NCBI GenBank assembly: GCA_036488875.1
Contig: DASXGW010000001.1
Coordinates: forward strand, 62,001-126,000
From: Candidatus Baltobacteraceae bacterium
GTDB lineage: Bacteria > Vulcanimicrobiota > Vulcanimicrobiia > Vulcanimicrobiales > Vulcanimicrobiaceae
Direction: 5' to 3'
DNA: 64,000 nucleotides
How positions within the stretch are numbered: the first letter of the stretch is position 1; each line of letters begins with the position of its first letter. Shown here in pieces: positions 172 to 7,636 of this stretch. Both the position numbers and the translations under genes were made by a program. The notes below the pieces were generated by a model. It saw only the letters and a program-made list of their open reading frames with translations, was not told where the DNA came from and searched no databases.

Positions 172-198
172 GCCCCGGGCAGCGCCCGGGGTTTCTTT
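172..198 (+). terminator. Rho-independent terminator
   Basis: CCCCGGGC (173-180) pairs with GCCCGGGG (184-191) across the loop AGC, followed by TTTCTTT. It ends the plus-strand gene upstream. The hairpin also lies just beyond the stop of the minus-strand formate dehydrogenase operon (stop at 197-199), so it probably serves both convergent transcripts, although the T-run is good only on the plus strand. Confidence 0.85.
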
Positions 199-1069
199 AT
201 GTTTGCGCGGCGATGATGTATTTCGGATCTTTGGCGGATTGCTTTCCGGCGTGGTACACCGCGAAGCGTTCGGCTAGGCCGCCCGCGAGAAGAAGCGCAC
301 CGCCCGCCTTCGCCAACCCTTTGCCGCGGGCGGCGGCAATCGTGCCCGCGATGTTGAGTGCTCCAGCTAGGAATGCGAGCATTCCCGCCCGACCTTTTTC
401 ATACGGCTCCGCTTGGGTTTTTCCGAGCTCGTGATGCAGGCGCTTGAGCGCGAACCGAACGGCGATCGCGCCCACCAACGCCAGCCGTCGTGCAGCGCCG
501 TTCTCGTCGGGCGGCGCGCAGCAAAGGCCGACCGCGCCTGCCGTCGACGCCGACGTTGCGGCGAACAGCAGTGGAAGCGATTCCCGGCCGTGGAGCCACG
601 CAGGCATAGCCGTATCGCTGATGAGCACGGACGTGTAGACCGACATCACCGGTCCGACGAGTCCCGCGATCGTTTCGAACGCGCGTCCCAGCGGCGTTGC
701 GATGCCCGTGAGCTCGGAGGCGGCCGCAGCCATGGACGATCCGCCGAATATCGAGAACACGTACACGCCGACGCTCATTGGCGACGTGGGCTTGAAGACG
801 CGCAGCATGTTCGCAAAGCGCGACGGTTTCTTGAGGTCGGCAATTAAGCAGAAACCGCTAAGCGCGCTGCCCGCGGCCGCGGCGAGTGTCATCGTGCGTG
901 CGAGCCCATGCTTTTTGCGAACGCGCGAAACGAGTCCCAGCGCCGCACACGCGCCGGCCAAGCCGCCGGCCCAAAAGTACGTTGGAATCAGCGGCGTCCA
1001 CTCCGGCGGCTTGACGATCGGCTTGCCGTAATAGCCGCCGATCGCGCCGTTTGCTGATGCGGTCTTCAC
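197..1069 (-). CDS. NrfD/PsrC-type membrane subunit of formate dehydrogenase
   Basis: Integral membrane protein of 290 aa, third gene of the formate dehydrogenase operon. NrfD/PsrC proteins anchor the catalytic and Fe-S subunits and exchange electrons with the quinone pool. The sequence shows a typical NrfD opening (GYYG..IVKPPEW..LIPTYFW.GG) and about eight hydrophobic stretches to the C-terminus. The GTG start at 1069 overlaps the TGA of the Fe-S subunit in a GTGA junction, indicating translational coupling. A longer reading frame upstream lies inside the Fe-S gene and is rejected. NrfD takes the place of the haem-b FdnI subunit of E. coli formate dehydrogenase-N. The family is clear; quinone coupling is from family knowledge. 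Confidence 0.88.
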   Translation of the reverse strand: MKTASANGAIGGYYGKPIVKPPEWTPLIPTYFWAGGLAGACAALGLVSRVRKKHGLARTMTLAAAAGSALSGFCLIADLKKPSRFANMLRVFKPTSPMSVGVYVFSIFGGSSMAAAASELTGIATPLGRAFETIAGLVGPVMSVYTSVLISDTAMPAWLHGRESLPLLFAATSASTAGAVGLCCAPPDENGAARRLALVGAIAVRFALKRLHHELGKTQAEPYEKGRAGMLAFLAGALNIAGTIAAARGKGLAKAGGALLLAGGLAERFAVYHAGKQSAKDPKYIIAAQT

Positions 1070-1914
1070 GGTCCGATACTCGCTGCGATGATCGCCGCCA
1101 GCAGTGCCGCCGCTGCTACGCCGGCGGCGCGCCACATCTGCGGGAGATATTTCGTCGGCACGACGGGATTCGGCGGCAATCCATAGACCTCGGGACGATC
1201 GAGAAGAAGAAATATCGAGCCTCCGCCGCCGATGCCGTCCTTCGGATCGTCGAGATACAATCGCGCGTCCGGAAAGCGATCCACGACGTCTTGCACGCGC
1301 GCCTGCGCTCGCTCGCGCAGCTCTTCGACGTTCCCGTATTGGATCGAGTGCGTCGGGCAAGCTTTGGCGCACGCAGGCTCGTCACCCACCTTCAACCGGT
1401 CGTAACAAAGCGTGCATTTGCCCATCGTTCCGCGGCCGCTCGTCTCGCCCCGAGGAGAAACTTCGTCGACGCGCTGGCTGATGACGCCGAAGGGACAAGC
1501 CACCACGCAGTAGCCGCAGCCGTTGCAGACGTCATCCTGCAAAACGACCGTGCCGAACTCGGTGCGAACCAGGGCGCCCGTCGGACAAACGTCGAGGCAG
1601 GCCGCATGCGTGCAGTGTTTACAGACGTCCGATTCCATGAGCCACCGGTTGTCGTCCATCTGCTCGACGAACGCGACGTGCCGCCACGTCGAACCGCTGA
1701 GTTCGCCGGTGTTGTCGTACGACATGCCGGTAAACGTATAGCCGTCTTGCGGCAGCTCGTTCCATTCCTTGCACGCCACCTCGCAGGCTTTGCAGCCGAT
1801 GCAGAGCGTCGTGTCGGTGAAGAAACCTTTGCGATCGCGCTCGGAGGAACCGTAGGTCGCGGCTTGTGCGGCCGCCGACGTTTGGGCGATCAAGTCCACA
1901 AAAAACGTACTCAC
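1066..1914 (-). CDS. fdhB: Formate dehydrogenase iron-sulfur subunit, four [4Fe-4S] clusters
   Basis: Electron-transfer subunit of 282 aa (FdnH/HybA type) that carries electrons from the molybdenum subunit to the membrane anchor. Four ferredoxin-like Cys clusters are visible: C38/C41/C44/C48 (CIGCKACEVAC), a second at CKHCTHAACLDVC, a third at CNGCGYCVVAC and a fourth at CTLC...CAKAC. A single C-terminal hydrophobic helix (AAAALLAAIIAASI) anchors it, as in FdnH. The GTG start at 1914 overlaps the fdhA TGA (GTGA), and its own stop overlaps the NrfD start, so the three genes are one coupled unit. Length and cluster order match the family. Formate as substrate is inferred from the selenocysteine-containing partner. 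Confidence 0.93.
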   Translation of the reverse strand: MSTFFVDLIAQTSAAAQAATYGSSERDRKGFFTDTTLCIGCKACEVACKEWNELPQDGYTFTGMSYDNTGELSGSTWRHVAFVEQMDDNRWLMESDVCKHCTHAACLDVCPTGALVRTEFGTVVLQDDVCNGCGYCVVACPFGVISQRVDEVSPRGETSGRGTMGKCTLCYDRLKVGDEPACAKACPTHSIQYGNVEELRERAQARVQDVVDRFPDARLYLDDPKDGIGGGGSIFLLLDRPEVYGLPPNPVVPTKYLPQMWRAAGVAAAALLAAIIAASIGP

Positions 1915-4900
1915 GATCGCTCCTTTGCGCGCGCCCGGCCCTGCACGGCCGACAGATACTCGCGCATCTCAACGCCGTGCGGCCGGCGGCCTGGCTGAAT
2001 GTCGCACGTCAAACCTTTGGTCTCCTGAATGTGCACGTTGGGATCCAGCGCGACGTGCAAGAGGTCGTTGGCGGAGTCTCCGGTGACCAAGCCCTTGCGT
2101 CCCCAATGGTAAGGCAGGCCGACCGTATGGATGACCTTGCCGTCGACGCGCATTGGCCGCACGCGATCGGTAACCATGACGCGCGCTTCGACGACCGCAC
2201 GCATCGTCGTAATCGTCGCCCACTTTCCGTGACGCAGCCCGCGCAGCTGCGCCAGCTCGCGACTTACTTCGCAGAAAAACTCGGGCTGCAGCTCGCTCAG
2301 GTGCGGAACGCTGCGCGACATGCCGCCGGCGGTGTGATGCTCCGTAAGACGATACGTATAAAGCACGAACGGAAACAGATCGCCGTGTTCGCTGCTCGGC
2401 GACGGATTGTATTCGTTGAACTTCCGCGGAAACTGCTGACGCGCCGGGTTGGATTGTTGTGCGTAGAGCGGATTGCGAACCGGCGACTCCTGCGGTTCGT
2501 AATACGTCGGGAGCGGCCCGTCGACGACGCCGTTTGGGACGAAGATCCAGCCTAAACCGTCATCTTGTAGAATGAACGGGTGCCAGCCGGCGATCGCCTC
2601 TTCGCGCTTGGCGCCGCTGGGCGGCGTATAGTCTGGACGTTTGGTCTTCTGGAAGTCCGGGGAATCGTGGCCCGTCCACTGCGCGCTCGCTTCGTCCCAC
2701 CAGACGTAGCGCTTGCGTTCGCTCCACGGATTGCCGTCGGGATCGGCCGACGCGCGGTTGTAGAGAATTCGCCGGTTTGACGGCCACGCCCATCCCCATT
2801 GCGGCGCTACCCAGCTTTGCTCGCTTCTCGGTGTGCGGTTTGCCGTTTGATTCTTTTCATCTTTGAAACAACCGCAGTAGATCCAGCAGCCGCAAGCCGT
2901 GGAGCCGTCGGCTTTGAGTTCCGTATACGACGAAAGCGCCTTTCCTTCGGCGTCCCAGCCGTTGACTTCGCGCAACACGGCGTGGGCGTCGGGTTCGGCA
3001 ATCTCTCCCAGCTCGGGATACTCCCACGTCAGTTCGCGGATCAAATCGCCGTGCGGATCCCGGCTGGAATCCAACTTTGCCTTGATGCGCTTGCCGAGAT
3101 GGTAATAGAACCATAGGTCGGATCGGGCTTCGCCTTGGGGCTCGACCGCCTTGTGATGCCACTGCAGCAGCCGTTGAGTATTGGTGTACGATCCATCCTT
3201 TTCCGTATGCGCGGCGGCCGGCATCCAAAAGATTTCGGTGGGAATGGCTTCGGTGCGCAGCTCGCCGCTTTCGATCTCGGGGCAGTCGTACCAAAATGAC
3301 GCGCTTTCGATTTCGTTGAAATCGCGCACGACTAGCCATTGTAGGTTGGCCAGCGCGCGGCGATGCAAGCCGGCGTTGGCCGATCCGACCGCCGGGTTTT
3401 CGCCGCAGATGAAGAAGCCTTTGACTTTTCCGTCGACCATGCCCATTATGCTGCGATAGGTGGAATGATCGCCGCTGATGCGCGGCAGCAGGTCGAAGCA
3501 GAACTGATTGGCGTCCGTCGCATACTCGCCGAACCACGCCTTGAGCAAGCTGACCACGTACTTGTCGAGGTTACCCCAAAAGCCGGTTTTCGCGCCTTCG
3601 GATTCAACGAAGTGCTGCAGATTGCTGTGCGCCTTCGCGTGCGGCATCGGAATGTACCCCGGCAACAGATCGAACAGCGTGGGAATGTCGGTCGAGCCTT
3701 GAATTGAGGCATGTCCGCGTAACGCGAGAATGCCGCCGCCCGGGCGGCCGATATTTCCAAGCAACAGTTGAACGATGGCGGCCGCGCGAATCATTTGCAC
3801 GCCGAACGTGTGCTGCGTCCAGGCGACCGAATACGCGATGGCCGACGTGCGCTCGCGCCCGCTGTTTTGGCAGAGCGCTTCGGCGACGGCTACGACCTGC
3901 GCGGGCTCGATGCCGCAAATCTTCGCCACCGTTTCGGGCGTGTAGCGGCTGTAGTGGCGTTTGAGCACTTGGTAGATACACCGCGGATGCTGCAGCGTTT
4001 TATCCAAGTACGGCGGCTCGCCACGCTTCAAGGCATCCATCGTGTCGGCTTTCGTGCTTTCCTGTTTTTCGAGCCCTTCTTCGCTCTCGCGCTGGCCCGA
4101 CGCCCCGTGAAGATCCATGCCCTCGTACATCCAGCTATGGAAGACGTAGCCGTTCTTATCGGGCTGCCAGCCGGAAAAGAAGCCGTCGAGATCTTCGGTG
4201 TCGAGAAACTCGTTGCGAAGGATCACCGGCGCGTTGGTGTAGTTGACGACGTATTCCGTAAACGCGCGGTCGTTTTCGAGAATGTATCTGATGACGCCGC
4301 CCAGGAAGGCGATATCGGTTCCAGGGCGGATTGGTACGTGCATGGTCGCCATCGCGCTGGTGCGCGTGAAGCGCGGATCGACGTGGATGAACGTCGCGCC
4401 GCGCTCGCGCGCTTCCATGACCCATTGAAAGCCGACCGGGTGATTTTCGGCCATGTTCGAGCCCATGATCAAGATACAGTCGGAGTTCTGCAGGTCTTGC
4501 TGAAACGTCGTGGCGCCGCCGCGGCCGAACGAGGTTCCCAAACTGGGAACCGTCGAGCTATGTCATATTCGAGCCTGGTTCTCTACCTGCACGATGCCCA
4601 GCGCAGTGTAGAGCTTTTTCATTAAGTAGTTCTCTTCGTTGTCGAGCGTCGCGCCGCCCAGGCTCGCGATGCCATAGCAGCGGTTGATCGCCTTTGCTTC
4701 CTCGTCCGTGGATTCCCACGTCTCGCGGCGCGTCTGCAGCACGCGGTCGGCGATCATGTCCATCGCGCGATCCAGCGGAAGCTCTTCCCATCGCATCCCG
4801 TACGGGCGGCGGTATTTTACCTTGTACTCGCGCAGCGGGCTCTGTACCATCGTGCGGGTGGCGGCTCCCTTGGGACAGAGATGGCCGCGCGAAATCGGGC

Positions 4901-5120
4901 TGTCCGGATCGCCCTCGATCTGAATCACTTTTTCGTCTTTGACGTAGACGTTCTGTCCGCAGCCGACGGCGCAATAGGGACAAACGCTTTTAACGACTTT
5001 GGCGTCTTCTATGCGCGCGCGCCAGTCGCGCGTTTTGTCCGACAGGACGGACGGACCAAAGGCGAGCTTATCGCCTCCCTCTGCCTGACGGACAAGCGGC
5101 CATGAGAACTCACCGTGCAT
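1911..5120 (-). CDS. fdhA: Selenocysteine-containing formate dehydrogenase, catalytic subunit
   Basis: Molybdenum/tungsten bis-MGD oxidoreductase of 1069 aa that oxidises formate to CO2. The reading frame is continuous from 5120 to 1911 except for one in-frame TGA (4565-4563), codon 186. That TGA sits exactly where FdnG-type enzymes carry selenocysteine: QARI-Sec-HSSTVPS, then GTSFGRGG. A SECIS-like hairpin follows at the correct distance. The N-terminal [4Fe-4S] ligands C47, C50, C54 and C82 are present (VCPYCAVGC...LCPKG). The start at 5120 was chosen because MHGEFSWPLVRQ resembles the N-terminus of related enzymes; an ATG further upstream would add non-conserved sequence. No twin-arginine signal is visible, unlike E. 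coli FdnG. Standard gene calling would give two fragments (4563-5120 and 1911-4541). selA, selB, selC, selD and fdhD are not in the window. Confidence 0.93.
4533..4565 (-). promoter_or_regulatory. UGA selenocysteine codon with bacterial SECIS hairpin
   Basis: On the minus strand the TGA at 4565-4563 is followed by 11 nt and then a perfect 7-bp stem GGTTCCC / GGGAACC (4551-4545 and 4539-4533) with apical loop AGTTT. The spacing from UGA to stem and the GGUU at the stem base match the E. coli fdhF/fdnG SECIS arrangement as I recall it. The apical loop carries GU, the feature SelB recognises in E. coli. The hairpin is translated as part of fdhA, as is usual for bacterial SECIS elements. Confidence 0.87.
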
Positions 5121-6271: not shown

Positions 6272-6520
6272 ATGGCGATCTGGCACGTCTGGGGCGATTA
6301 CGTGCACACGCTTCCCGAGCATATCGGCGACGCATCGGTCGTTCGCGGCCAAGAAAAGGCGGCGAAGAAGACGGCCGAAGGCCGCGGATTCGATTTCACT
6401 CACCGGCTTCGCAACGGTTTCGAGCCGTGGGCCGCGGCGTTTGCCGCCGACGGCGACGAGGGCGACGTCGAGTTCGAATTCGCCAGCTACCCAATCGTCC
6501 GCGGCTGGCAGAAAATCTAG
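6272..6520 (+). CDS. Small hypothetical protein (82 aa), coupled to the SDR gene
   Basis: I do not recognise this protein. The ATG at 6272 follows the SDR stop by 1 nt and has a good ribosome site (CGGAGG) inside the end of the SDR gene, so the two are translationally linked. The product is soluble with no signal peptide: a central lysine/glutamate segment (RGQEKAAKKTAEG), then a Trp/Phe-containing acidic C-terminal half (DGDEGDVEFEF). It ends shortly before the repeat array. Coupling suggests it works with the SDR enzyme, but nothing in the sequence gives a function. Confidence 0.7.
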   Translation: MAIWHVWGDYVHTLPEHIGDASVVRGQEKAAKKTAEGRGFDFTHRLRNGFEPWAAAFAADGDEGDVEFEFASYPIVRGWQKI

Positions 6521-6532
6521 CCGCGCCGCCTC

Positions 6533-7052
6533 TCTCATCCTGAGCGTAGGCGCGCAGCGCCGAAGTCGAAGGGCAAGCGCATCTCCGGCACTGTCATCCT
6601 GAGCGTAGGCGCGCAGCGCCGAAGTCGAAGGGCAGGCGCATCTCCGGCACTGTCATCCTGAGCGTAGGCGCGCAGCGCCGAAGTCGAAGGGCAAGCGCAT
6701 CTCCGGCACTGTCATCCTGAGCGTAGGCGCGCAGCGCCGAAGTCGAAGGGCAGGCGTATCTCCGGCACTGTCATCCTGAGCGTAGGTCGCAGCGCCGAAG
6801 TCGAAGGCAGGCGCATCTCCGGCACTGTCATCCTGAGCGTAGGCGCGCAGCGCCGAAGTCGAAGGGCAGGCGCATCTCTGGCACTGTCATCCTGAGCGTA
6901 GGCGCGCAGCGCCGAAGTCGAAGGGCAGGCGTATCTCCGGCACTGTCATCCTGAGCGTAGGTCGCAGCGCCGAAGTCGAAGGGCAGGCGCATCTCCGGCA
7001 CTGTCATCCTGAGCGTAGGCGCGCAGCGCCGAAGTCGAAGGGCAGGCGCATC
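6533..7052 (+). repeat. Nine-copy tandem array of a 59-bp REP-like repeat (left array)
   Basis: Nine near-identical units, with TGAGCGTAGG beginning at 6541, 6600, 6659, 6718, 6777, 6834, 6893, 6952 and 7010 (period 57-59 bp). Each unit reads TCATCCTGAGCGTAGG, a GC-rich core GCGCGCAGCGCC able to form GGCGC-GCA-GCGCC, then GAAGTCGAAGGGCA, then a short spacer (GCGCATCTCCGGCACTG). The units starting at 6777 and 6952 carry GGTCGCAGCGCC in the core instead. The array ends exactly at the stop of the minus-strand GIY-YIG gene. No ORF here looks real. An oppositely oriented array lies on the other side of that gene. Confidence 0.95.
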
Positions 7053-7364
7053 TCAGCGGTTGCTGGAGCGCTCGTGCTTATGCGAACCTCTGGCAAACTT
7101 ACCGATCATCTTCCAGTCGCCGCGAATCAGAGCCGCCTTCTTGCGGCGACTCCATCTCTTAAGCTTCTTCTCCCAGTCGATAGCATCGCCAACGTAATCG
7201 AAAGCCGTAGAGTACACCAATACGACGGGACGTCGAGAAAACGTATAGCTGTCCTCATCGAAGCCTTCGTTGTGCTCCCATACCCTCCGCTCGACGTCGT
7301 TCGTTATACCGACGTAGTAGCTGCCATCGCGGCAGAACAGCATATAGACGAAATACCCTTCCAT
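7053..7364 (-). CDS. GIY-YIG nuclease domain protein
   Basis: Single-domain GIY-YIG protein of 103 aa (UPF0213/YhbQ-like size). The N-terminal strand pair reads YFVYML...YYVGIT, followed by the catalytic-Arg helix VERRVWEHN and a conserved Glu in AIDWEKKLKRW; the C-terminus is basic (WSRRKKAALI, SHKHERSSNR). The fold cuts DNA with one divalent metal, but the role of small stand-alone members is mostly unknown. The gene sits between two arrays of the same repeat in opposite orientations, and its TGA lies at the edge of the left array. That layout recalls REP-associated transposase (RAYT) genes between REP elements, though RAYTs are Y1 enzymes. A role in moving or copying the repeat is inference. 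Confidence 0.9.
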   Translation of the reverse strand: MEGYFVYMLFCRDGSYYVGITNDVERRVWEHNEGFDEDSYTFSRRPVVLVYSTAFDYVGDAIDWEKKLKRWSRRKKAALIRGDWKMIGKFARGSHKHERSSNR

Positions 7365-7407
7365 ACCGGCACAACTGCGCAGTGCCGCGCATTTGTCTAG
7401 TCTGCGC

Positions 7408-7636
7408 CTGCCCTTCGACTTCGCGCCCTGCGGGCGCTACGCTCAGGATGACAAGAGGTGAGACGCCCTGCCCTTCGACTTCGCGCCCTTCGGGCGCTAC
7501 GCTCAGGATGACAAGAGGTGAGATGCGCCTGCCCTTCGACTTCGCGCCCTGCGGGCGCTACGCTCAGGATGACAAGAGGTGAGATGCGCCTGCCCTTCGA
7601 CTTCGCGCCTTCGGGCGCTACGCTCAGGATGACAGT
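7408..7636 (-). repeat. Four-copy array of the same REP-like repeat, inverted (right array)
   Basis: CCCTTCGACTT starts at 7411, 7471, 7532 and 7593 (period 60-61 bp). Read on the minus strand each unit is TCATCCTGAGCGTAG, a GC-rich core, then GAAGTCGAAGGGCA, the same unit as the left array in opposite orientation. The core stem differs from the left array: GCGCCC-GCA-GGGCGC in two units, GCGCCC with a TTC/GAA loop in the second, and a one-base-shortened version in the fourth. Spacers read AAGAGGTGAGATGCGC on the plus strand. The outermost unit supplies the last codons and stop of the adjacent isomerase gene. Confidence 0.95.

Follow-up and report, generated by a model that had tools for sequence, protein, structure and literature searches.

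Evidence for a selenocysteine formate dehydrogenase with a conserved SECIS-type hairpin in the Eremiobacterota

In this work we have analysed a 64-kb stretch of DNA (the window), part of a 3.7-Mb genome estimated to be 97.6% complete, in which fdhG, a gene for a formate dehydrogenase catalytic subunit, carries an in-frame UGA. Judging from the sequence and its conservation, we are almost certain that fdhG is a genuine bacterial selenoprotein gene, coding for FdhG, the catalytic member of a membrane-linked formate dehydrogenase made up of FdhG, FdhB and NrfD, in which the standard machinery would place selenocysteine (Sec) at UGA 186. The gene, the codon, a hairpin with covariation, the genes of the machinery and the co-occurrence with SelA in relatives were all observed directly.

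The fdhG gene and its enzyme family

The operon is encoded on the minus strand in the order fdhG (5120-1911), fdhB (1914-1066) and a gene for an NrfD-type membrane subunit (to 197). A family match identifies fdhB (1066..1914) as the iron-sulfur subunit for electron transfer, which has a hydrophobic stretch at its C-terminus, and the NrfD-type gene is placed at 197..1069, its start at about 1069 being an estimate within a frame that is open to 1372. When fdhG (1911..5120) is read from the ATG at 5120, the TGA at 4565-4563 (codon 186) is the sole interruption, lying in the context QARI-U-HSSTVPSLGTSFGRGG; with Sec186 the predicted product has 1069 aa and ends at a normal TGA stop. The reading of 4563..4565 as a codon for selenocysteine is based on alignment and conservation. 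A codon-likelihood scan of the whole window found a TGA flanked by coding-like sequence in one frame at fdhG codon 186 alone; this was the scan used for the window, and a cruder scan of third-position G+C near the sel genes proved far too noisy.

Over almost its whole length the protein matches the NCBIfam family NF041513 (formate_DH_Act), scoring 1809.2 bits where the cut-off is 1400; its score against TIGR01553 is 939 bits (cut-off 814). The earlier note on this DNA, made from the sequence alone, had proposed that the single in-frame TGA of the catalytic subunit aligns with a known Sec, and residue 186 does match the Sec of Desulfovibrio formate dehydrogenases, aligning with the X (selenocysteine) of D. 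gigas 1h0h (QARI-X-HSATV). The next-best chain, named selenocysteine-containing, has its residue opposite codon 186 given as C. The UGA is the codon of the metal-ligand residue in Sec formate dehydrogenase alpha subunits, and by these matches fdhG is a member of this already well-known enzyme type. A Sec formate dehydrogenase of Streptomyces has been described together with its SECIS and selABCD (PMC4498112). Our enzyme resembles the actinobacterial-type enzymes of NF041513 in its full-length match and in having the UGA and the hairpin in the same place, but it differs in its host, here Eremiobacterota, and is about 60-65% identical to the actinobacterial members; in contrast to the Streptomyces/NF041513 case, the sel genes of the window's genome are located away from the formate dehydrogenase gene. 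With the FdnG-type formate dehydrogenase-N (TIGR01553; 1kqf, Desulfovibrio 1h0h) it shares Sec at the same residue, whereas its membrane subunit is of the NrfD type and, as a further difference, inspection by eye of the fdhG N-terminus revealed no twin-arginine signal.

Elsewhere in the window, two repeat clusters with units of about 59-61 nt (6513-7097 and 7403-7634), in which CATCCTGAGCGTAGGCGCGCAGCGCCGAAGTCGAAGG and a sequence close to its reverse complement are found, flank a small minus-strand gene around 7060-7370. Just past the left end of the window, at C1:54997-62157 of the same genome (L137:997-8157), lie two large adjacent genes of 1227 and 1157 aa, whose products are repetitive and probably secreted, with N-terminal lipoprotein-like signals.

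The hairpin downstream of the UGA

A spacer of 11 nt, CATAGCTCGAC, separates the UGA from the hairpin GGUUCCC-AGUUU-GGGAACC (4551-4533, minus strand). Its perfect 7-bp stem and the GU in its loop are as the earlier note had described them, and an eighth pair, A-U, is possible. According to a published model of the bacterial SECIS, the apical loop has 3-9 nt with a G in its first two positions, the upper stem has 4-16 bp, the distance from UGA to loop is 16-37 nt and the MFE is at most -7.5 (PMC13188914). The fdhG hairpin falls within all four of these constraints, with a stem of 7 bp, the loop AGUUU, a distance of 18 nt and -15.8 kcal/mol over a 38-nt stretch; loop size, position of the G, spacing, stem length and energy are all shared with that consensus, from which it differs in having a stem without a bulged U.

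The hairpin forms when the transcript after the UGA is folded, as had been suggested as a check, and its single-sequence folding energy is mildly unusual (z -1.81), 128 of 2000 synonymous recodings of the region folding at least as well. With these values we dropped the folding energy of a single sequence, which is weak, as proof of a SECIS, and we hold the hairpin to be real because of its conservation. Standard pairs are formed at all six inner positions of the stem in every one of 59 distinct homologous 40-mers, and all seven pairs together reach 95% pairing, compared to 33-62% when the partner is slid by 1-3 bases; the outermost pair is formed in 64% of homologues. Two of the stem pairs connect third codon positions that are silent, and yet they covary: the pair linking Val with Gly occurs as C-G, G-C, U-A and U-G, and that linking Pro with Leu as C-G, U-A and G-C. 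On a protein tree of 68 rows, these wobble-to-wobble pairs show 16 and 9 changes with 0 mismatches. At the Ser/Gly codon from which the loop is formed, 59/59 distinct sequences have AGT or GGT, and both codons are rare in the window gene (GGT for 6 of 88 Gly, AGT for 2 of 64 Ser). Pairing is conserved in the homologues beyond what coding needs, and on this comparative evidence the hairpin is a SECIS-type element and a putative docking site for SelB. An Rfam search of the window and of the surroundings of selB gave no match, a result that says little because no general bacterial SECIS model matched anywhere.

Selenocysteine machinery and alternative readings of the UGA

A selenoprotein would imply SelA, SelB, SelD and tRNA-Sec elsewhere in the genome, as the earlier note had reasoned, and all were recovered. 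Profile searches of the window's own genome placed selA at C4:183584 (508 bits), selB, with its C-terminal SelB winged helix, at C4:200240 (309 bits), tRNA-Sec with a UCA anticodon at C4:218824 (78 bits) and two selD genes on C12 (370 and 260 bits); selA, selB, selC and selD together constitute the bacterial Sec-decoding trait. Both selD genes, selD1 at C12:160572-161618 (L017:1480-2526) and the second at about C12:115072-116088 (L025:3073-4089), themselves have an in-frame UGA at a motif position (CAG-U-ASK and CVG-U-APN), and in each case a hairpin comes after it, its loop being GUC or GUU. FdhD, which is required for the maturation of such formate dehydrogenases, was also found. A second Sec formate dehydrogenase-like gene is present on the minus strand at about C4:75412-77311 (L138:1413-3312; homologues L150 and L163-L171), with the context SCNRT-U-HAPSV, the same 11-nt spacing as in fdhG and a GGUCU loop; both in this genome and in relatives its frame starts past the usual place of the N-terminal Fe4S4 domain.

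Could fdhG be a decaying gene, its UGA the result of a nonsense mutation or of faulty assembly? One stop in an otherwise open frame of a draft genome, taken alone, could be either. However, when homologous loci were collected with a context pattern that left the residue at the UGA place free, the same codon was found in 103/103 loci with matching context (59 distinct 40-mers), from independent assemblies and isolates, and since the UGA is conserved in independent genomes, this explanation is refuted. Nor does the gene appear to be decaying, as both of its halves evolve as coding sequence, with divergence mostly at third positions both 5' and 3' of the UGA, and the hairpin is conserved in the homologues. 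We have rejected the pseudogene or assembly error as extremely improbable; the claim that this is a selenoprotein and not a broken gene stands, with the UGA in all of these loci, a covarying hairpin and the full machinery. Just as implausible, in our view, is an organism-wide reassignment of UGA (e.g. to Trp or Gly) or plain read-through of the stop. UGA is indeed found inside several genes, namely fdhG, both selD genes, a permease and the second formate dehydrogenase, but each of these internal codons occupies a catalytic or motif Cys/Sec position and is then followed by a hairpin. Moreover, fdhG itself terminates at UGA, the genes of the 64-kb window contain no other internal UGA, and the genome has the complete Sec machinery. 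A genome-wide change of the code was rejected on the grounds that UGA also serves as an ordinary stop and that the site is conserved.

Our working model for the Sec reading is built on the established biology of the enzyme family, and every gene it needs was found in the window's genome. SelA would produce selenocysteinyl-tRNA (anticodon UCA) using selenophosphate from SelD, and SelB with GTP would bring this tRNA to the ribosome and dock on the hairpin which starts 11 nt after the UGA. The UGA would then be decoded as Sec186, a ligand of the Mo or W centre oxidising formate, from which electrons would pass to FdhB and then, at the NrfD subunit, to quinone. From the family we infer the metal, the catalytic direction and the electron acceptor, as well as the insertion of Sec in living cells. 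Might CO2 reduction or formate detoxification be the main task of the selenoprotein, in place of respiratory formate oxidation? Sec formate dehydrogenases can catalyse both directions; however, its partners FdhB and NrfD agree with an enzyme linked to quinone, and we consider this alternative unlikely.

Distribution among relatives and a SelD-linked permease

Seven distant homologues in the phylum are without the UGA and all have Cys at the position, so that relatives, which the earlier note had proposed to inspect for Sec and Cys forms, show either the UGA with a covarying hairpin or, in these seven, Cys. Across 60 related genomes, the UGA-containing formate dehydrogenase and SelA were both present in 47 and both absent in 8, with SelA only in 4 and the UGA-containing enzyme only in 1, a genome which is 70% complete (Fisher p 1.6e-6). 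The genomes compared are mostly metagenome-assembled. SelA scored above the cut-off in 121 of the 149 genomes of the phylum; Sec use is therefore common in Eremiobacterota, and the idea that it would be notable there fails. Sec decoding is widespread in this phylum, and within a partial coverage of the literature we found no relevant paper stating that it is common in Eremiobacterota or WPS-2. The guess of an Eremiobacterota-like host holds, since fdhG in two genomes of the host family is identical over the compared stretch to that of Candidatus Eremiobacterota MAGs (G017 to L057 and G025 to L058). A contig titled Rhodospirillales bacterium (L060, JANYGA010000122.1) has an fdhG that is identical over the compared stretch to that of G008 from the window's Eremiobacterota family, and from this match its public title looks wrong.

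The window protein and six further Eremiobacterota sequences form one group in a quick tree, next to a single Dormibacterota sequence; the set of 45 that encloses them has full support and otherwise consists of Actinomycetota. This position suggests transfer of fdhG between Eremiobacterota and Actinomycetota/Dormibacterota, the direction being left open by a quick, unrooted tree. Most relatives in the window's family and class have a second Sec enzyme, 50-54% identical, which falls in other branches.

Outside the window, a permease of the ArsP_1 type (PF03773) is encoded directly upstream of selD1 at C12:159479-160555 (L017:387-1463; homologues L152-L160 and L173-L185). Its gene has an in-frame UGA (MM-U-TCCTGP) and also a hairpin, whose loop is GGUC. 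The protein scores 79.5 bits against SaoE (cut-off 325) and 50.3 bits against SO_0444 (cut-off 300), both under the cut-off, and it therefore belongs to neither family; a Sec form of SO_0444 with the motif UxC has already been listed (PMC13188914). Close homologues were compared from 23 genomes of the phylum: the residue is encoded by UGA in 12 and is Cys in 11, and selD is nearby in 16 of the 23 loci (roughly 4 kb each, some shorter). In the SelA-less genome G114, the homologue has Cys and no selD alongside. Prokaryotes are stated to have no known selenium transporter that is both specific and of high affinity (PMC13188914), and YedE has been proposed as a selenium transporter from genomic context (PMC5322559); the ArsP_1 permease is a comparable candidate, likewise by genomic context. 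Perhaps it represents a selenoprotein subfamily outside the SaoE and SO_0444 cut-offs, alternating between Sec and Cys beside a UGA-containing selD, and is a dedicated selenium transporter serving SelD, a proposal which we put forward tentatively and regard as rather doubtful.

With Sec at codon 186, an apparently broken fdhG becomes a correctly read gene. In Eremiobacterota, formate dehydrogenase, SelD and a permease will escape pipelines which halt at UGA, and the SelD-linked permease offers a candidate that can be tested in the search for a selenium transporter dedicated to this task in bacteria.
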